Source: Ruminiclostridium herbifermentans (GTDB lineage: Bacteria > Bacillota > Clostridia > Acetivibrionales > DSM-1351). Taken from it: a stretch of 64,000 nucleotides of DNA. Both the position numbers and the translations under genes were made by a program. This document shows, in pieces, positions 4,150 through 45,226 of this stretch. The stretch is from positions 2,906,501 through 2,970,500 of the forward strand of contig NZ_CP061336.1 of assembly GCF_005473905.2 (NCBI RefSeq). The letters run 5' to 3'. How positions within the stretch are numbered: the stretch's first letter is position 1; the number at the start of each line of letters is the position of its first letter. The notes beneath the pieces were generated by a model that made no database searches, was not told where the DNA came from, and saw nothing but the letters and a program-made list of their open reading frames with translations.

Positions 4150-5109
4150 ATGGCGTACAGCTTTAAAGTCTATATATCCGATGGAAAAGAATATTTTGAA
4201 TATGGAGACGGACAGAAGACAATAAAAAAGAGCTTCGCATTTTCGCAAAGCCTGATGGATATTCTATACCTTGACATTTGGTCTCATAGTGAGTTATTTA
4301 ATCGGATGGGGGAAAACCTTTATAGCCTGTATCCCGATAAAGACCCGAAACTGGTGGAGGAAATTAAGGATGATTTAAACACGCTTTCAAAAGTACATGT
4401 CTATTTTGAATTCCTGCGCCTGGAATGGCTGGACAAGCTGGAACAAGCCGAAAAACAAGGCTTTAAAGATGTTCTGGATTTGCTTCCCCGCAAGAAGCTA
4501 ACCCACCTGCCCATGAACCTTTCCACCATGCAGCGGGAGCTTATGGCTTTATGGAACCATGTGCTGGATATCCTCTCTCCCGATGAGCCGATTCAAAAGA
4601 AAATGGTGGATTACTATAGTCCCAAAAAGTATAGAAAACCGGTCAATCCGGGGGTGTTTGAATTTCAGCCCCTGCGCATAAGCTTTGAAGCGGTTGATTC
4701 AATGACCTTTACCGAAGTCCTGTACCCGAAAAGCATTTACGATATCATTGATTTTTTTGTGCGCGAATGTATTAAACGGGAGGTACGATTCCGTGTCTGC
4801 AAGCACTGTAATCAATTCTTTGCCCTGACCGGACACATCAATACGGAATACTGCGACAGGCCCTTTGACAGCGCCGGACACACCTGTAAGGAAATGGGGG
4901 CGCTTCGCTTATGGGAGAAGAAGAAAGCCGACACACCGGCTTTAAAAGCATACAGTAAAGCCTACAAGAAACGGTTTGCATGGATTAAGTACGGAAAAAT
5001 ACCGAAAGAAGCTTTTTACGAATGGGCAGAAAAAGCAAGAGAGAAACGGGAGTTGTGTTTAAAAGGCGGCATGACGCTGGAGGAATTTCGGGCATGGCTA
5101 GATGATTAA
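4150..5109 (+). CDS. DUF6076 domain protein of a mobile element
   Basis: Protein of 319 residues, function unknown. It matches from memory the DUF6076 family that is common in integrative elements of Firmicutes. The C-terminal half has a zinc-binding Cys pattern (CKHCNQFF, then TEYCDRP and HTCKE, roughly residues 219-252) followed by a basic helical tail. ATG 4150 is chosen because GAGGTGG sits 5 nt upstream; the earlier GTG at 4141 lies inside that ribosome site. The gene is GC-richer than the chromosome and belongs with the mob genes to the same acquired element. A nucleic-acid binding role is plausible from the zinc motif, but that is inference. Confidence 0.75.
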   Translation: MAYSFKVYISDGKEYFEYGDGQKTIKKSFAFSQSLMDILYLDIWSHSELFNRMGENLYSLYPDKDPKLVEEIKDDLNTLSKVHVYFEFLRLEWLDKLEQAEKQGFKDVLDLLPRKKLTHLPMNLSTMQRELMALWNHVLDILSPDEPIQKKMVDYYSPKKYRKPVNPGVFEFQPLRISFEAVDSMTFTEVLYPKSIYDIIDFFVRECIKREVRFRVCKHCNQFFALTGHINTEYCDRPFDSAGHTCKEMGALRLWEKKKADTPALKAYSKAYKKRFAWIKYGKIPKEAFYEWAEKAREKRELCLKGGMTLEEFRAWLDD

Positions 5110-5330
5110 GATTTGTGCCATTATCAGATGATTTGCTGAGTTTTTTGGGAAATAATAATTGATGCTATAGATTAGGGACTTATTCCTTCTTTGATTTCAG
5201 ACGCTATTTCATCGCTCTTTCTCGAACCATGCAAAATTTTTCTGGGAAATATGTAACGTTTTACATATTTTAACTGTCTATATATGTATAAGGGATTAGG
5301 TGAAAAGTTTACATGAAAGGTTGGAATGTT

Positions 5331-5402
5331 ATGAGTAAAAGTCTTGATATGCATATTGGCGAAGTAGTAAAAGAGAGGATAGATAACCTTCTTATTATTT
5401 GA
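5331..5402 (+). pseudogene. Truncated N-terminus of an XRE-like regulator
   Basis: A 23-residue frame (MSKSLDMHIGEVVKERIDNL then a stop) that resembles the first helix of small Xre/Cro regulators. It stops where the helix-turn-helix should begin, and there is no continuation in other frames that I can recognise. A ribosome site of moderate quality (GGTTGG) precedes it. Either a remnant from the edge of the integrated element or a chance reading; low confidence. Confidence 0.35.
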
Positions 5403-6037
5403 ATGAATTATTTTATTTATTTTATATATGCTATAAATAGCAAATTATACCTATAGTAAATAAATGGGACTTTTGGACGATTTTCACTAACATGCAGAAA
5501 TTATATAATAATGTAAATAGATGGAAATGCTAATTGACTAACCGATAAAATAGAGGTTAAAGCCGTATATTGATTTTTAGAGAGATATGCTTTAGCCTCT
5601 TATTATCTTAAAATACAATTTATAACTTTTTTAGTCATTTTTACATATAAGTAATGAAAATGTAATTGGATTTTAACTGATATGCGTTATACTGTTAACA
5701 TACAAATGATTCCATTATAATAAGTAGCGAACACTCAACGTTATGAATTAATTGGAGTAATATGGAACTACTTGAATACCTTCACAGTCTTATAGTATAG
5801 GGGGACAAGCTTTATCCTCTGTATAAATATAAGAAATCGAGTACCGAAATAGGTGAGCATATGCTACACATAAGGTCGCCGGACATATCGAAAAGGCTCT
5901 CGCATATCCCCATATCTTGACCGTTGCAAAGTCCCTTGATTGAAAGGATATTTTAAAGAGCCTTATATTAAGAAAATACACCTGAAATGGAAGCGTAGTC
6001 AATAGAAAAATCGAAAAAAAAGAAGGAGTGAAAAAGC
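5403..6037. other. Gene-free interval and long leader of the subtilase gene
   Basis: About 630 bp without a convincing gene. A hairpin at 5552-5563 / 5589-5600 (AGAGGTTAAAGC, 11 of 12 paired) could be a terminator or attenuator. The last 240 bp before the subtilase start contain several short complementary segments (for example GAGCATATGC near 5855 against GCATAT near 5905), so a structured leader is possible, but I do not recognise a known riboswitch. A good ribosome site AGAAGGAG lies 12 nt before ATG 6038. Confidence 0.4.
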
Positions 6038-21042: not shown

Positions 21043-21183
21043 TTACTTTGTAGATTCCTTTTTTTCTCTAAGTACCTTGGGAACCTTAGGTTGATAAATC
21101 ATCAACATACATTTACCAGCCTTCTGAATTGATATTTTTTCAATACTCTTTCCAATTACATTAGTTAACTTCGTCTTTTGCAT
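21043..21183 (-). CDS. agrD: AgrD-type cyclic (thio)lactone autoinducer prepeptide
   Basis: 46-residue prepeptide below the usual ORF cut-off. It has a basic amphipathic N-terminus (residues 1-24), a single Cys25, and the conserved C-terminal recognition tail QPKVPKVLRE. Alignment with the clostridial AgrD pattern Cxxxx-xQPxxP predicts a five-residue thiolactone ring CMLMI (25-29), with Tyr30 starting the tail. Ribosome site GAGGAG (complement of CTCCTC at 21191) precedes ATG 21183. It follows the AgrC-like gene by 38 bp on the same strand and ends at a strong terminator. The processing enzyme AgrB is encoded divergently about 1 kb away. Confidence 0.88.
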   Translation of the reverse strand: MQKTKLTNVIGKSIEKISIQKAGKCMLMIYQPKVPKVLREKKESTK

Positions 21184-21221
21184 ATTATCACTCCTCTTTA
21201 TGTATTAAATATCTATGTAAT

Positions 21222-22055
21222 TTAATAATTACCTTTATAATTATCTCTATGAATCTCATTTTTAGCTAAGTTTTCTCTTGCTTTTATTAAATCTGTGTTC
21301 AGCCTTTCTATATATGCCTCCCTAGCTTGTATGTTATATACAGAGAAAAACAAACAAATATAAATTATAATTGGAACAACAATAACACCCATTAATATTA
21401 GTAATGTCGTTTGTGTTTCTAGAGAACTATTTATTAGGAACTTGTCTAATACAAATATTTTTACAGCTGCAACAATCCAAATTATATTAAAAACAGAAGC
21501 TATCAAAGAAAAAAGAGCTAGTTCTTCATCTTTTATCAGCGTTTTCCATATATTAGTGTTTATTTTCTCATCAAAATACTTTCGTTTTCTCAAATATAAA
21601 ACTATTATTCCTAACTCTACCACTCTTATTGGTAATGAACTAACAAAAGCATTTATAATGTTATCCTTTAAATTAAATTCATTTATACTTGTACAAAGCA
21701 TAATTACTTTAAAATTTACAATTTCCAACATTGCATTGATCATACATGCTACAGAAACAAAACTAAATACCGCAAATATTCTTTTTAAGGTTTTTTGTTT
21801 ATAAAGTAAGCATATTATTACCACCATAGTTAATATAAAGACAATAAATATAATAGTCATATCAATGTTAAAAAAGTATCTTAGTATATTTGAAATTACA
21901 GCAGGAACTAGAATAGATGTAACTAATTTTTTATTAAATACTATCATATTTGTCATTCGTAATAATATTAATGTTGCAACTACCACATAGCTTTCTTCCA
22001 AAATAGAAATTAATAAAATATTGAGTAAAAAATCAATAATATTGGTCATATACAT
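21222..22055 (-). CDS. AgrC-like membrane sensor without kinase domain
   Basis: 277 residues with six or seven predicted membrane helices (about 7-30, 40-58, 62-84, 92-115, 135-155, 180-205, 220-245), then a coiled, charged tail (AREAYIERLNTDLIKARENLAKNEIHRDN). That is the layout of the input half of AgrC/CitA-like peptide receptors, and the tail looks like the start of the dimerisation helix, but the frame ends there with no HATPase domain and no continuation in other frames. It heads the transcript that contains agrD. It could be a natural kinase-less receptor, a peptide exporter or immunity-like protein, or a truncated agrC. Confidence 0.65.
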   Translation of the reverse strand: MYMTNIIDFLLNILLISILEESYVVVATLILLRMTNMIVFNKKLVTSILVPAVISNILRYFFNIDMTIIFIVFILTMVVIICLLYKQKTLKRIFAVFSFVSVACMINAMLEIVNFKVIMLCTSINEFNLKDNIINAFVSSLPIRVVELGIIVLYLRKRKYFDEKINTNIWKTLIKDEELALFSLIASVFNIIWIVAAVKIFVLDKFLINSSLETQTTLLILMGVIVVPIIIYICLFFSVYNIQAREAYIERLNTDLIKARENLAKNEIHRDNYKGNY

Positions 22056-22203
22056 AATTCCCCTTATACAAAATATTATTTTTCAACATATATTTACATA
22101 CTTTATTATATATGGTACTATTCTTTTAAGGTAATTTTACATTTCTCGTAAAGATTTGTAAATAGTACAATTACATTTAACAGTAAATTTATAGGAAATA
22201 CGA

Positions 22204-22815
22204 ATGAAAATTATTAGAAGATTTGCATATTCGAGCGCAGTTTATATTCAAAAAAATAATAATGGTAATCACGAAAACAGAAGAATCCTTTATTTCGGCT
22301 TTCAAGCTATATACGGAGATATCATTAAGCTAATTATTGTTATATTAATTTCGTCTGCCTTAAAATCACTTTTACAAGTATTAGCACTGACATTCGCATT
22401 TGTTTTACTCAGAAGATATGCAGGCGGATTTCATATGGACACTGAAGGAAAATGCATTATTTCTACCGTTTGTTCTTTTGTTATTCCCGGAACGCTAATT
22501 AGTAAGATTAGTTTTGAATTTAATACAGTCTGGATCATAATTATTATTGCCGTAGCATTTGTAATTTGCTTATTCCTCTTAAAAAAATATGCTCCAAAGG
22601 ACTGCGTAAATAGGCCAATTGAAGAAGATGAGGCAGCTATTTTCAAAAGAAAAGCTATTCGAGACGTTATTATACTGATAATAATATCAATTATTCTTGC
22701 TATCTTAGGCCAGCACTTATTATCTTTATCTATTGTTGCTGGAATTTTAATTGAGATTTTTACCTTGGTTCCAGTTGGATATAGGTTGTTTGAGAGGATT
22801 AATTCTTGGCTTTAG
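22204..22815 (+). CDS. agrB: AgrB-type peptide-processing membrane protease
   Basis: 203-residue integral membrane protein that cleaves AgrD and forms the thiolactone. The catalytic pair is present: His77 in RRYAGGFH and Cys84 in EGKC, the diagnostic AgrB arrangement. About five membrane helices follow the basic N-terminal amphipathic segment. It is transcribed divergently from the AgrC-like/agrD pair, with a 148-bp shared intergenic region, instead of the usual agrBD order. The ribosome site (AGGAAA) is weak. Confidence 0.93.
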   Translation: MKIIRRFAYSSAVYIQKNNNGNHENRRILYFGFQAIYGDIIKLIIVILISSALKSLLQVLALTFAFVLLRRYAGGFHMDTEGKCIISTVCSFVIPGTLISKISFEFNTVWIIIIIAVAFVICLFLLKKYAPKDCVNRPIEEDEAAIFKRKAIRDVIILIIISIILAILGQHLLSLSIVAGILIEIFTLVPVGYRLFERINSWL

Positions 22816-22906: not shown

Positions 22907-23512
22907 CTAACTTAATTCTACTGCTTTATACAAACAATCTTCGAATGTTATATAGCTATCAATCAAATTATTTTTATGCCATAAGCTAATTTTGAAATTT
23001 AGCTTATCTATTTCTTTAAATACGCTCTTCTTTTCTTTTATAATTCGCTCAGTTCTGATAACCTCATTTTTATAAAACTCGTTAGTTTTTTCATCATTTT
23101 TAAAGGTTTCTAAATTCCCTTCATGGTCAACATACCAACCTAAATCTTCTGTAAGTTTCTCAAATTTCTTTTCAATAGGTTCAATAAATAACGTAAATCT
23201 CCAGTTATCACCGTAGGTTTTTCTAAAACTGAGTACTAAGCTGTTATCCTCACCTTTTTCTTCCCAAAGAATTATAGTTATTTGAGGATTTTTGGCTGAT
23301 ATATTTTTTTCTCCTCTTTTTTCTATTACAAAACCATTTGAAAGGCAATTTTCAAAATCCTTGAACATATTCTTTTTAAGTGTTTCCAGCTTTTTATTAT
23401 ATGCAGAATAGATCCTGACATTTTCAACACTAAACTGTCTCAGTTTTTCGCTGTATCTATCAACATCTAAAACAGCGGAATTATCATCAATTAACCCTTC
23501 CCACTTCATCAT
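22907..23512 (-). CDS. Hypothetical cytosolic protein
   Basis: 201-residue protein, highly charged, no signal peptide or membrane helix. It contains predicted helical segments (KKLETLKKNMFKDFENC, RTERIIKEKKSVFKEIDKL) around a central beta region (PQITIILWEEKGEDNSLVLSF, NWRFTLFIEP). No family recognised. I start it at ATG 23512 because GGGGAGG lies just in front; a second ATG follows directly. Alone on the minus strand, convergent with agrB. Confidence 0.6.
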   Translation of the reverse strand: MMKWEGLIDDNSAVLDVDRYSEKLRQFSVENVRIYSAYNKKLETLKKNMFKDFENCLSNGFVIEKRGEKNISAKNPQITIILWEEKGEDNSLVLSFRKTYGDNWRFTLFIEPIEKKFEKLTEDLGWYVDHEGNLETFKNDEKTNEFYKNEVIRTERIIKEKKSVFKEIDKLNFKISLWHKNNLIDSYITFEDCLYKAVELS

Positions 23513-24166
23513 TATTCCTCCCCTAGTATGTAATAATGGGAAAACCATTATATGATTATATATAGTATAAATACAAAACTGGAATTACAAAAATAATGTA
23601 CATAAACACAATAAATATTAACAATCTCAAAAATTTGCTTCACAAAGCCATTTGTTACCTCTAACATTGATTATTACATTCAAATTTCTTGGTTCAATCA
23701 AAATTTATCTCGGCTCCTGCAGCGAAATACTTCCTATTTACTCTGTACCCTTTAAAACCAATGGCTTTGTAATTTTTGTGTATTACTTAAAAATCCATAA
23801 TCTTAAAGACATAATATATAAATTCCTATATGTTTAAAAACATAAAGAATATCTGTATAAATTTCGTAGTATTTCGTTAAACTCAGATTATCAAATACTT
23901 TTGAATTGAGTTTAAATTTAAATTACTATAAATAATAAAAAATAATGTGCCACTGAATAGTATAAATTTACATACTTATGCCTTCTATGCAATATTTATC
24001 GGTAATATCGACAAAATATATTACATTTTGTTTATTTATATTTAAAAAAAGTGCTTAAATTTTTTCTAAAAAGATGAAATTAAAAACACTGTAATTTTAC
24101 GACATAAAACCATCATAAAATCACAGTGTTATATAAACAACTAACAAAAATTATTCCTAACCTTTA
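23513..24166. other. Gene-free AT-rich interval with a long-range inverted repeat
   Basis: No coding potential recognised. A perfect 11-bp inverted repeat (ACAAAGCCATT 23642-23652 / 23760-23770, extendable with a mismatch) encloses about 107 bp, the size and shape of a small MITE or folded RNA. No second copy was seen in the window. Confidence 0.45.
24085..24130 (-). terminator. Terminator of the VTC-DUF4956 operon
   Basis: 18-bp stem with two mismatches (24085-24102 / 24113-24130, core AACACTGT) followed by TTTTTAATTT on the minus strand, 37 bp after the DUF4956 stop. Confidence 0.8.
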
Positions 24167-27827: not shown

Positions 27828-28502
27828 ATGAATATTCTGCTTGTTGAAGACAGAATTCCATTAACTGATTCATTGTTAAGCATATTAAAAAAGAATAATC
27901 ACTCAATAGACCGTACTGATAATATCGGAGATGGACTATATCTTGCTTTGCTCGGTGCTTACGATATTGTTGTAATGGATACTTTCGATCATACAACAGA
28001 TTGTATAACTCTCATAAAAAGTATAAGGAAAAGCGGATTAACAATGCCTATACTTCTTCTTTCTAATCAAAGTGAAGTATCCTATAAAGTAATGGGACTT
28101 GATAGCGGAGCTGATGACTATCTAGTTAAACCCTTTTCTATAGATGAGTTATTAGCAAGAATCAGAGCTTTAGGAAGGAGAAAAAATACAATACTGCTAA
28201 ATAGCACACTTAGTTTCGGGGATATTACTCTCGATACTAATAGTTTAAAGCTTTCAACAGATAAAGAAGAAACTACTTTAACCTGTCGCGAGAGTAAACT
28301 TTTAGAATTTTTAATTATTAGAAAGTGCATGATTACTTCAAAAGACATAATAATAGAGAAAATCTGGGGATTTGATTCTGAAGCACAAGCAAATCATGTA
28401 GAAGTATACATATCTTTTTTAAGAAAAAAATTATCTTCTTTAAATTCAAAAGTAATAATAAATACTATTCGTGGATTAGGCTACAAGCTAGATATATCTT
28501 AA
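27828..28502 (+). CDS. Orphan OmpR/PhoB-family response regulator
   Basis: 224 residues: receiver domain (1-118) with phosphoacceptor Asp51 (VVMD), Ser79 at the switch Thr/Ser position and Lys101 (LVKPF), followed by a winged-helix effector domain (LTCRESKLLEFLI, NHVEVYISFLRKKL, IRGLGYKL). The acidic pocket (VEDR, residues 6-9) is present, but the loop after Asp51 reads TFDHTTD instead of the usual LMLPG, so phosphorylation dynamics may differ. No histidine kinase is adjacent. It lies divergent to the Cthe_2159-like gene whose promoter bears PhoB-type direct repeats, so this is the obvious candidate regulator. Its own mRNA starts with a structured leader. Confidence 0.9.
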   Translation: MNILLVEDRIPLTDSLLSILKKNNHSIDRTDNIGDGLYLALLGAYDIVVMDTFDHTTDCITLIKSIRKSGLTMPILLLSNQSEVSYKVMGLDSGADDYLVKPFSIDELLARIRALGRRKNTILLNSTLSFGDITLDTNSLKLSTDKEETTLTCRESKLLEFLIIRKCMITSKDIIIEKIWGFDSEAQANHVEVYISFLRKKLSSLNSKVIINTIRGLGYKLDIS

Positions 28503-42253: not shown

Positions 42254-42652
42254 CTAATCCCTTAACGGAACGCCCTTTGCATCTCTATTTATACTACCTG
42301 ACAGTATCAATATACCTTCTATCAATCCCCAAATAGCCGATACCCATGAAAGTAAAAAACATGTCAATACTGTTATTAGCAGCTGAGCAACTCCAATTCC
42401 GATATTTCCAAGATAGAATCTGTGTACTCCAAACATTCCTAAGAATATGCCAAATAAACCAGCTGCTAGCTTTGATTTCTGCTCACCATAAGAATTTAAA
42501 TTTACTCCGCACTTCATACATACCAAAGCCATTGATTCCGTTGCTTCTCCACACATAGGACAATAATTATTACCTTTCCCAACTGGTACTCCACAAGTAA
42601 CACATATAGCAGCTTGGTCATTCATTATACTTCCACAATTCCTGCAATACAT
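42254..42652 (-). CDS. Zinc-ribbon TM2 domain protein
   Basis: 132-residue membrane protein: two zinc-ribbon pairs (CRNCG ... CVTCG and CPMCG ... CMKCG, residues 3-50) followed by a TM2 domain with two helices (AAGLFGIFLGMFGVHRFYLG, VAQLLITVLTCFLLSWVSAIW) and the conserved HRFYLG loop. Function of TM2 proteins in bacteria is unknown. GCAGGAGG precedes ATG 42652. The 344 bp upstream (42653-42996) show nothing but AT-rich spacer. Confidence 0.9.
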   Translation of the reverse strand: MYCRNCGSIMNDQAAICVTCGVPVGKGNNYCPMCGEATESMALVCMKCGVNLNSYGEQKSKLAAGLFGIFLGMFGVHRFYLGNIGIGVAQLLITVLTCFLLSWVSAIWGLIEGILILSGSINRDAKGVPLRD

Positions 42653-42996
42653 AATACTACCTCCTGCCTTTACTTTATTTAATATATACTTTAGTTTATT
42701 TATTCTTTACAATTTGAAAATGCATTTCAACTAAGTATACGTTTACTGAAATAATATGTCTGAAAAATATATTTCATTAAACCAAACTAAATATATATTA
42801 AATTATAATAAATTTCAAATAGAAATTTTAATATAGCTATTAATCTAACTTTTTTAGGAAAAAGTTCTTCTTATGTTAATTTTTTAATCTATCTACATAA
42901 GTTTACATAACAGCTTTTATTTTAGAAAATATAGATTACTATTATAGACTAATTTAGAAAGGCAAAAGCTAGAATTGACTATCTCTATAACTGCTA

Positions 42997-43335
42997 TTAC
43001 AAAGCTTTTCTGTTTTTTTCTAGTGTTCTTTCTTTAATATCTATTGCCAACTCAATATATGTTTGATTTTCTGGATTTTGTACAAATTCCTTTACCTCAT
43101 CAGGCAAATGACTTAAATAAGGACTTCTAATATCATTATAGCCTATTAAGTAATCCACAGATACATCAAAATAGCTTGCAAGCTGCTTCAACCTTGATAT
43201 AGAAGGCTCCCTCTTATTTCCTACATATCCATTAAAAGTTGGTGATTTGATGTTTAGCTGAGCCGCAACTTCTTGTTGCTCTAAGCCCTTCTCTTTTACT
43301 AATTGTTTTAACCTCTCTCCAACGGTAATATCCAT
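42997..43335 (-). CDS. XRE-family transcriptional regulator
   Basis: 112-residue DNA-binding protein. The helix-turn-helix spans about residues 6-60 (GERLKQLVKEKGLEQQEVAAQLNI ... FNGYVGNKREPSISRLKQLASYFDVSVDYLIG), the Cro/C1 fold. The C-terminal 50 residues are charged and probably dimerise the protein. ATG 43335 is chosen because AAGGAG is 8 nt upstream and homology begins there. Neighbours do not suggest a target; the gene is divergent from the Spo0E-like gene with 546 bp between them. Confidence 0.9.
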   Translation of the reverse strand: MDITVGERLKQLVKEKGLEQQEVAAQLNIKSPTFNGYVGNKREPSISRLKQLASYFDVSVDYLIGYNDIRSPYLSHLPDEVKEFVQNPENQTYIELAIDIKERTLEKNRKAL

Positions 43336-43881
43336 AAGCAGCTCCTTCCTATATAATTTTTCATTTTCCATTCAAGTATAATTATAAATTTTACCATTTA
43401 AATTGTCAAACATTTCCTTTTGCATAATGAAAATATAATGAACATTTTGTAGAAAGTTTAGTTATTTATAAAATTTATATTAAATTAAACTGCTGCACTG
43501 CCGATATGAAAATATACCTTAAAACTTGTTTGCATAAAGGATACAAAAGAGCACGCAATTTTTTACAATTATAATTTCTTATTTGATTATCCATAAGACA
43601 TTGGTATATTATGGCAAATATGAAGTCATATATATGAAGTTATATATATGAGTTATATATTACTTTGATATATTGTAAAAGGCTTATTTTACTGAAATTG
43701 CAAAGTGCATTTTGGTTTTTAGATTTTTATACTATAATATTGACATAATTCATTTTGAATTTTATAATATATGCATGTGGTAATTCGTTCCATTTATGCT
43801 ATTATATTGGTTGATCAATTATAACTTATCATGCAAGCTTAAGAATCACATTATTGGATAGATGCGTGCAGGAGGTTTTGT
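43336..43881. other. Gene-free AT-rich interval
   Basis: No coding frame, tRNA or strong hairpin recognised. A short imperfect tandem (ATATATGAAGT-type units) is at about 43617-43660. Promoters for the flanking divergent genes must lie here. Confidence 0.4.
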
Positions 43882-44034
43882 ATGCTAGAGGATAGGATTA
43901 ACAAGCTAAGAGAAACACTCAATAGCGAAATAGAAAAATGCAGCTTAGACAGTGAATCAATTTTGACCCTCAGTCATGATCTAGATGAACTAATTACCGA
44001 ATACTATAAGTATTCAAAAAAAAAGAATATTTAA
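43882..44034 (+). CDS. Spo0E-like sporulation phosphatase
   Basis: 50-residue protein with the Spo0E-family signature: N-terminal helix (DRINKLRETLNSEIEKC), then the motif LSHDLDELITEYYKY, equivalent to SxxLDxLIxxYY of Spo0E/YnzD, which removes phosphate from Spo0A~P. This fits a spore-forming clostridium. CAGGAGG 8 nt before ATG 43882 gives an excellent ribosome site. It lies 97 bp ahead of ychF on the same strand. Confidence 0.88.
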   Translation: MLEDRINKLRETLNSEIEKCSLDSESILTLSHDLDELITEYYKYSKKKNI

Positions 44035-44131
44035 TGGAAACATGAGTCCATTGTTATTGCATTGAAAAATTATAAAGTGTATAATCTTTATGATGTTTTA
44101 AATGTTTAATAACCATGAGAGGATATTATAA

Positions 44132-45226
44132 ATGAAACTAGGTATTGTAGGTCTACCAAATGTAGGAAAAAGCACTCTATTTAATGCTATTACAAAGGCT
44201 GGCGCAGAAAGCGCTAACTATCCTTTTTGTACTATCGAACCAAATGTTGGAATCGTAGCTGTTCCCGATGAAAGATTAGATATGCTTGCAAAAATGTATA
44301 ATCCTGAGAAAAACACCCCAACAGTAATTGAATTTGTTGATATTGCAGGTTTAGTTAAGGGCGCTAGCAAAGGTGAGGGACTTGGCAATAAATTCTTATC
44401 TCACATAAGAGAAGTTGATGCTATCGTTCATGTTGTTAGGTGTTTTGAAGATGGAAACATTATTCATGTTGACGGTTCAATTGGTCCAAAAAGAGATGTT
44501 GAAACTATCAATTTAGAGCTCATATTTGCTGATTTGGAGATGCTGGAGCGTAGAATTGATAGAACTAAAAAAATGATGAAATCAGGGGATAAGAAATTCC
44601 TATCTGAGTTAGAGGTATTCGAAAAAATCAAATTACATTTAGAAAGCGGCAAGCCTGCTAGGTCAATAAGCTTCGATCAGGAGCAGCAGCAAATTGTTGA
44701 CCAGTTGTTTTTAATCACATCAAAACCAGTATTATATGCTGCAAATGTTTCTGAAGATGATTTATCTAACCTAAATGAAAATAAGTTTTTAGCTGAACTT
44801 AAGGAACTTGCTCAAGAAGAAGGCTCCGAGGTTATGGTTATTTGCGCCAAAATCGAAGAAGAAATTGCTCAGCTTTCTGATGATGAAAAAGCTGATTTCC
44901 TTGAAGCTATGGGATTAGAAGAGTCTGGTTTAGACAAATTAGTTAAAGCCAGCTACAGGATTCTTGGTCTTATTAGTTTCCTTACGGCTGGTCCACAAGA
45001 GGTTAGGGCTTGGACTATTATCAAGGGAACAAAAGCACCTCAAGCTGCAGGGAAAATTCACAGTGATTTTGAAAGAGGTTTTATTAGAGCTGAAATCGTT
45101 TCATATGATGATTTAATAAGTTGTGGCACATATACTGCTGCAAAAGAAAAAGGGCTGGTCAGGTCGGAAGGAAAAGATTACGTTATGCAAGACGGAGATG
45201 TTACCTTATTCAGATTTAACGTATAG
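44132..45226 (+). CDS. ychF: Redox-regulated ATPase YchF (OBG-like)
   Basis: 364-residue Obg-family P-loop protein that prefers ATP. G1 GLPNVGKSTLFNA, G3 DIAGLVKGA, a coiled-coil insertion (residues ~125-200), an NxxE-type G4 replacement (ANVSEDD) and the C-terminal TGS-like domain (LISFLTAGPQEVRAWTI ... IHSDFERGFIRAEIV) are all in place. It binds ribosomes and modulates translation under stress. Followed by an intrinsic terminator. Confidence 0.97.
   Translation: MKLGIVGLPNVGKSTLFNAITKAGAESANYPFCTIEPNVGIVAVPDERLDMLAKMYNPEKNTPTVIEFVDIAGLVKGASKGEGLGNKFLSHIREVDAIVHVVRCFEDGNIIHVDGSIGPKRDVETINLELIFADLEMLERRIDRTKKMMKSGDKKFLSELEVFEKIKLHLESGKPARSISFDQEQQQIVDQLFLITSKPVLYAANVSEDDLSNLNENKFLAELKELAQEEGSEVMVICAKIEEEIAQLSDDEKADFLEAMGLEESGLDKLVKASYRILGLISFLTAGPQEVRAWTIIKGTKAPQAAGKIHSDFERGFIRAEIVSYDDLISCGTYTAAKEKGLVRSEGKDYVMQDGDVTLFRFNV

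Follow-up and report, generated by a model that had tools for sequence, protein, structure and literature searches.

A recurrent kinase-free agr-type module in Ruminiclostridium herbifermentans and its relatives, with a candidate peptide receptor descended from AgrC-type kinases

The window analysed here is a stretch of 64,000 nucleotides (G000:C1:2906501-2970500) from the genome of Ruminiclostridium herbifermentans (G000; a single contig of 4.82 Mb), a relative of the cellulose-degrading clostridia. On its reverse strand, agrD (21043..21183) encodes a 46-residue AgrD-type signal precursor, which matches NCBIfam TIGR04223 at 23.7 bits, above the cut-off of 19. The predicted ring, CMLMI (C25-I29; 21097..21111, reverse strand), is encoded by the codons TGT ATG TTG ATG ATT, read from 21111 to 21097; its limits are inferred from AgrD of other species, and it is followed by the tail YQPKVP. 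The gene 38 bp upstream on the same strand (21222..22055) encodes a 277-residue kinase-less membrane sensor of the AgrC type, here termed X, which was recognised through a family profile and a counterpart in genome G009, and which ends at its C-terminus in a short coil. A divergent intergenic region (22056..22203, read from the ORF map) separates this pair from agrB on the forward strand (22204..22815). The agrB product is a predicted AgrD-processing membrane peptidase (PF04647, 118.3 bits against a cut-off of 23) containing His77 and Cys84, a pair present in all 57 of the AgrB sequences compared. This gene content is in agreement with the first-pass annotation, which had described a 46-codon agrD with this ring and tail, preceded by a sensor without a kinase, alongside a divergent agrB and no linked response regulator. 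Neither Pfam nor NCBIfam gave X a match that passed the cut-off, a Pfam ATPase included; the 13 matches to HATPase_c_5 in the genome all lie outside the window. Inspection by eye of the ORFs between 17 and 27 kb, five of which near the locus were also scanned with Pfam, revealed no adjoining response regulator. The nearest recognised by eye, at 27828-28502 on the forward strand, is of the OmpR type, with no kinase gene recognised beside it. An ORF beside agrB (22907-23548), also found in G009, has a single sub-threshold Pfam match, and a promoter scan of the locus gave 14 matches, compared with 16.6 in shuffled sequences.

The origin of X can be traced by profile comparison. When a profile of 68 X sequences is aligned with five kinases of 452-455 aa, 266-276 of 278 positions are covered (E 7e-24 to 1e-19), and the alignment extends through the dimerisation region that holds the phospho-accepting histidine of the kinases. 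This histidine is found in all five of these close kinases, for which alone the column is firm, since five more distant kinases (five of the ten in the joint alignment) misalign theirs and also lack histidine in that column. Histidine is absent from all 59 X that have a residue at this position, nine of the 68 being gapped there, and the joint alignment places Asp in this column in the window X. The homology to full-length kinases upholds the view that X is a kinase-less relative of AgrC-type sensors; most simply, it would be the sensor of such a kinase with its dimerisation tail dead or lost and without an ATPase. Many X keep a dimerisation-like tail, nearly the whole of it is gone from three types of X, and the hairpin tail of most X is absent from that of the window, where the short coil stands. 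An AlphaFold2 model of the X of Acetivibrio mesophilus (pLDDT 73, pTM 0.66) has seven long membrane-fitting helices and a helical hairpin; the model of the window X is poor (pLDDT 52). A Foldseek search with the A. mesophilus model returned nothing at E <=0.001, and fold comparison gave this model no match above Z 7.1, a neutral outcome.

A local truncation of AgrC, raised in the first-pass annotation as the explanation that a full-length protein in relatives would indicate, can be ruled out, because the same short form is common to G009 and to a whole family. The arrangement of agrB divergent from X and agrD recurs in G009 with a short protein at the same place, X being 63% and agrD 72% identical; within the genus, X of the window type was found in these two genomes. 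Six agrB genes are present in G000: that of the window locus, that of a second locus (L007), three that have a full kinase in their vicinity and one accompanied by agrD only. L007 has the order agrB, X, agrD (B-X-D); its X, the second kinase-less one of the genome, is 270 aa long and of a type found in 9 of the 11 genomes of the genus (42-100% identity in eight). Within the order, a profile of 11 X found matches in 31 of 58 genomes, the 73 match rows containing no open frame longer than 359 aa; open X frames were present in 18 of 30 genera in this first family search. A broader profile (A3), made from 49 of the 68 X by omitting near-copies and broken and fragmentary sequences, the 68 containing one identical pair, matched 45 of the 58 genomes. 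By our count kinase-less X are present in 43 of these 58, not 45, because the matches in G040 and G042 are of kinase length only; G050 is represented by fragments. No convincing Pfam or NCBIfam match was obtained for any of the 49, single members having chance-like matches only, one of them to a staphylococcal AgrC (E 0.003). Across the class, at least 53 of 391 genomes (members of the order included) were matched, which is an undercount as at most the best six candidates per genome were scored. Beyond the order, the matches are for the most part weak, of half size or as long as a kinase; full-size frames without a kinase were few (G072, G164, G186 and G230). A scan of named genomes with a closer alignment (A5) yielded nine loci, drawn from three species of Acetivibrio and from six metagenome bins.

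Several further observations concern the extent of the family. Half-size relatives of 158-177 aa (L213:3612-4145; L214:3756-4277 and 4946-5473; L234:3328-3804; L235:3148-3678) match X over roughly its first 150-170 positions; those in L213, L214 and L234 immediately precede agrB, and an agrD-like peptide is encoded close by. Two X appear broken, one by internal stops (L120, G001:C22) and one by a split over two frames (L046, G008:C155), the agrB beside each being open. A phage origin was considered and rejected, two X profiles finding no relative in viral contigs and the window X being unmatched in phage records.

The neighbourhood of X was surveyed at 85 distinct loci, defined as frames of at least 200 aa after removal of one identical copy and of frames matching the kinase model; near-identical pairs such as that of G001 and G010 were retained. 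The detectors for XRE-type regulators, X, AgrB, nadA and agrD were home-made from sequences of this analysis, and are known to have missed one agrD, recognised by eye in L101, and at least two XRE-type regulators (those of L101 and L105, confirmed with Pfam; that of L129 falls below the cut-off). An agrD-like peptide is adjacent to 77 of the 85 X, the remaining eight having none detected, as against pattern matches in 14 of 1,914 random windows (0.7%). The first ring residue beside X is Cys in 45 cases and Ser in 32. Of the 85 X, 49 have a gene for an XRE-type regulator no more than 600 bp away, where two to three would be expected, given the background of 8 in 347 kb found away from X with the same model; these are convergent and downstream in 26 cases, on the same strand upstream in 20 and divergent in three. 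Our own model finds none within that distance at the other 36, including the loci of the window and G009 and the Clostridium thermocellum locus of a proved peptide. On a quick tree of 68 X, in which 24 of 64 forks are poorly supported, these arrangements (absence included) change at least 21 times, and the X-XRE pair must therefore often have been reordered, lost or regained. Twelve related X have no XRE neighbour by this model, most of them being located close to genes for glutamine synthetase, C26-peptidase or STAS proteins. At L007 (10657-12953), transposase-like genes, presumably of the IS66 kind, stand between agrD and the XRE gene. An orphan X, negative for the agrD pattern, occupies the same gene context in G000 (L041:7472-8431; G000:C1:2597507-2598382) and G009 (L090:3942-4922). 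The rearranged agr module of the first-pass annotation is therefore real but was too narrowly drawn, being one case of a recurrent module that consists of agrD and X, often with an XRE gene and sometimes with agrB. The XRE association, which lay outside the view of that annotation, holds at related loci and not at the locus of the window.

The supply of AgrB to these loci is uneven. Only 18 of 68 X have agrB within 3 kb; G026 carries eight full-size X and two agrB, and G032 eight X rows (one of them a fragment) and likewise two agrB. In many genomes a solo agrB is found beside a gene that is presumably nadA (quinolinate synthase), with no agrD or kinase recognised in flanks of about 1.5 kb. 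Such copies were read from neighbourhoods in 19 genomes (L138-L166, e.g. L142:1471-3467), one of them (G024) labelled by hand from a nadA-like neighbour seen by eye in L232; these nadA counts are no census, since the neighbourhoods were partly picked by best score. In a tree of 57 distinct AgrB, themselves partly chosen as best-scoring, a single clade (support 98/98) contains 18 of 19 X-linked copies, the window AgrB among them, all 19 nadA-solo copies and three unassigned ones. Outside it fall all 12 kinase-linked copies and a single X-linked copy, which comes from another order and sits on a long branch. Of the 19 genomes in which a nadA-solo agrB was read, 18 have kinase-less X, G040 being the exception. 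As X outnumber agrB in some genomes, and the X-linked and nadA-linked AgrB share a clade, the natural inference is that a shared AgrB encoded beside nadA may act in trans on AgrD precursors linked to X.

Comparison of G000 with G009 gives dN/dS of about 0.11 for both agrB and agrD, and pN/pS of 0.26 for X, for which dS is saturated. Together with the common layout, these low ratios indicate that the locus is more than a chance association; dN/dS is 0.18 in one pair of clade-1 X. Between G006 and G007, AgrB is 94% and the XRE protein 92% identical, compared with 72% for X and 56% for AgrD residues 25-33. With dS at 0.96 in X against 0.30 in AgrB, X may have been swapped by recombination. Other close pairs show the contrast less strongly, and it disappears in more distant comparisons with G000, in which AgrB is 60-64% and X 65-70% identical. 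Rapid change of X and the ring between conserved neighbours, as seen in G006 and G007, would be what a signal and its receptor should show, and the staphylococcal agr groups display the same fast change of receptor and ring.

A candidate partner for the window X is encoded 21 kb away, at 42997..43371 on the reverse strand (XRE-type; Pfam HTH_3, 38.2 bits). Its orthologues (65-88% identity) occur in the five other genomes of the genus that have clade-2 or clade-4 X; the remaining five have matches of at most 46%, or none. The orthologue adjoins B-X-D in G003 and G008. In the window (42254-45226) the XRE gene lies between a zinc-ribbon gene and ychF, and B-X-D is missing, where the G003 and G008 site has both; in G009 the same site again has the XRE gene without B-X-D. 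This regulator may be the partner of the window X or that of the orphan X at G000:C1:2597507. It is the best candidate regulator for the window X, as a lead rather than a result.

A link to a characterised peptide comes from C. thermocellum, a species used for biofuel work, to which G024 is taken to belong (strain ATCC 27405). According to the available text of Verbeke et al. (2017, PMC5322536), a Ser-lactone pentapeptide from Clo1313_2818 was confirmed by LC-MS/MS, with residues A24, S25, F29, Y30 and P35; its structure and growth effect were published, and AgrB, AgrC and AgrA candidates were reported as not identified. G024 contains an agrD of 40 aa, counted from the second Met, with A24, S25, F29, Y30 and P35 and the ring SFFIF, and an X gene adjoins it. 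By residue numbering, length and species, our match is that this agrD would be that of Clo1313_2818, and neither XRE nor agrB is found at its X locus. A set of radical-SAM gene, agrB and 54-aa agrD is also present in G024, as for Cthe_1309, Cthe_1310 and Cthe_3348 in the text available of Wilson et al. (2013, PMC3880215), which backs the species identity. The same text places Cthe_3383 among the most highly expressed genes of the strain, and by our match the agrD beside X in G024 corresponds to Cthe_3383. A second X locus in G024 has an XRE gene, X and an agrD with Cys25 and Leu29 (ring CFFFL), unlike the published residues. X is hence a candidate receptor for a published peptide for which the accessible part of the report (PMC5322536) gives none.

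The reading that seems moderately probable is that the window holds a kinase-free agr-type module, in which X is a peptide receptor acting on an XRE-type regulator in the manner of CylR1/CylR2. We infer that AgrB would trim and cyclise AgrD to a CMLMI thiolactone of five residues for release from the cell, and that X would bind this peptide and pass the signal on without a phosphorelay. The XRE-type protein, encoded beside X and agrD at most related loci, would be held or released by X, with the product of 42997-43371 as the regulator candidate in the window genome. A receptor role for X is likely, given its homology to kinase sensors, its linkage to agrD and XRE genes, the clade of its AgrB, the rapid divergence of X and ring in G006 and G007, its place beside the agrD of a proved peptide and the CylR1/CylR2 precedent; for signalling through XRE the chances may be put at even to somewhat better. 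Counting against this explanation are the lack of an XRE gene within 600 bp in both the window and G009, and by our model at 36 of the 85 X in all, the C. thermocellum locus of the proved peptide among them; the eight X of 85 without a detected agrD; the missing hairpin tail and poor model of the window X; and, in the more distant pairs with G000, a divergence of X no greater than that of AgrB. Among the functions suggested in the first-pass annotation, a peptide-binding receptor fits best, and those of exporter and immunity protein gained no positive support; signalling to a distant kinase is a less likely alternative.

It is unlikely that X is instead a peptide-binding modulator or sub-receptor of an AgrC-type kinase encoded elsewhere, forming mixed dimers or mopping up peptide. 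Several AgrC-like GHKL kinases are encoded in G000, that at G000:C1:3950268 (456 aa) being matched by the X profile, and a dimerisation-like tail is retained in many X, both points in favour. However, X are linked to their own agrD, and often to XRE genes, rather than to kinases, the AgrB encoded at X loci and those linked to kinases fall into separate parts of the tree, and nearly the whole tail has been lost from three X types. It is similarly doubtful that X makes, anchors or exports the peptide, or protects its producer, while another protein serves as receptor. Such a role would suit the position of X next to agrD, the scarcity of agrB near X and the half-size relatives that directly precede agrB. 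It fits less well with the homology of X to a kinase sensor domain and its linkage to DNA-binding proteins, with the finding that 18 genomes with X encode an AgrB of the appropriate clade at another site, and with the one close pair in which X has changed fast while the neighbouring AgrB is conserved. That X is a decayed AgrC without function, as the loss of histidine and ATPase and the broken copies in G001:C22 and G008:C155 might suggest, is very improbable and already contradicted by conservation: frames that remain open in 18 of 30 genera, the low pN/pS between G000 and G009 and the dN/dS of the clade-1 pair, conserved S-x-P-E and P-x-R motifs, and agrD retained beside 77 of 85 X.

If X is a receptor acting on an XRE-type regulator, the family could represent a third route of peptide signalling in Firmicutes, a proposal for which the balance is about even. 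Descendants of AgrC that have shed the kinase would act directly on XRE-type regulators, several private channels with rings of their own would operate in one genome, AgrB encoded beside nadA would serve them in trans, and the receptor of the C. thermocellum lactone would be among them. Peptide signalling thereby gains a protein family that has had no name, and the sensing of peptides without a kinase becomes open to direct test. It also suggests that not every agrD lacking a neighbouring agrC or agrB is an orphan. No description of X was found in the literature on AgrC/AgrD/CylR-type signalling, supplements and most subscription journals aside, nor in the accessible text of PMC5322536, PMC3709268, PMC3880215, PMC11210211 and PMC13220807.

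The agrBDCA systems of staphylococci and clostridia resemble the window locus in the His/Cys pair of AgrB, the AgrD-type precursor and a sensor of AgrC descent. They differ from it in that the window locus has no kinase domain, phospho-accepting histidine or response regulator; furthermore, agrB is divergent in the window and absent at other X loci, and XRE genes accompany many of the related ones. A scheme free of phosphorelay has been proposed for CylR1/CylR2 of the Enterococcus faecalis cytolysin, consisting, as the available text of PMC3709268 describes it, of a membrane protein and a helix-turn-helix regulator. The likeness to X, drawn from descriptions, lies in the proposed response to a secreted peptide. 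Unlike X, CylR1 is described there as having three predicted membrane helices and sensing a lantibiotic subunit. The adjacency of the two cyl genes is matched by an XRE gene at 49 of the 85 related loci, but not in the window, where no XRE gene lies within 600 bp. The agr1 locus of Clostridioides difficile, in the accounts available, is like the window locus in possessing agrB and agrD while lacking agrC and agrA, but differs from the window in being described as agrB1 and agrD1 only. Another parallel is that of Clo1313_2818 (PMC5322536, available text): its peptide is a Ser lactone, as opposed to the ring with a predicted Cys in the window, and its locus is without XRE and agrB, but in C. thermocellum, as in the window, X stands beside agrD.
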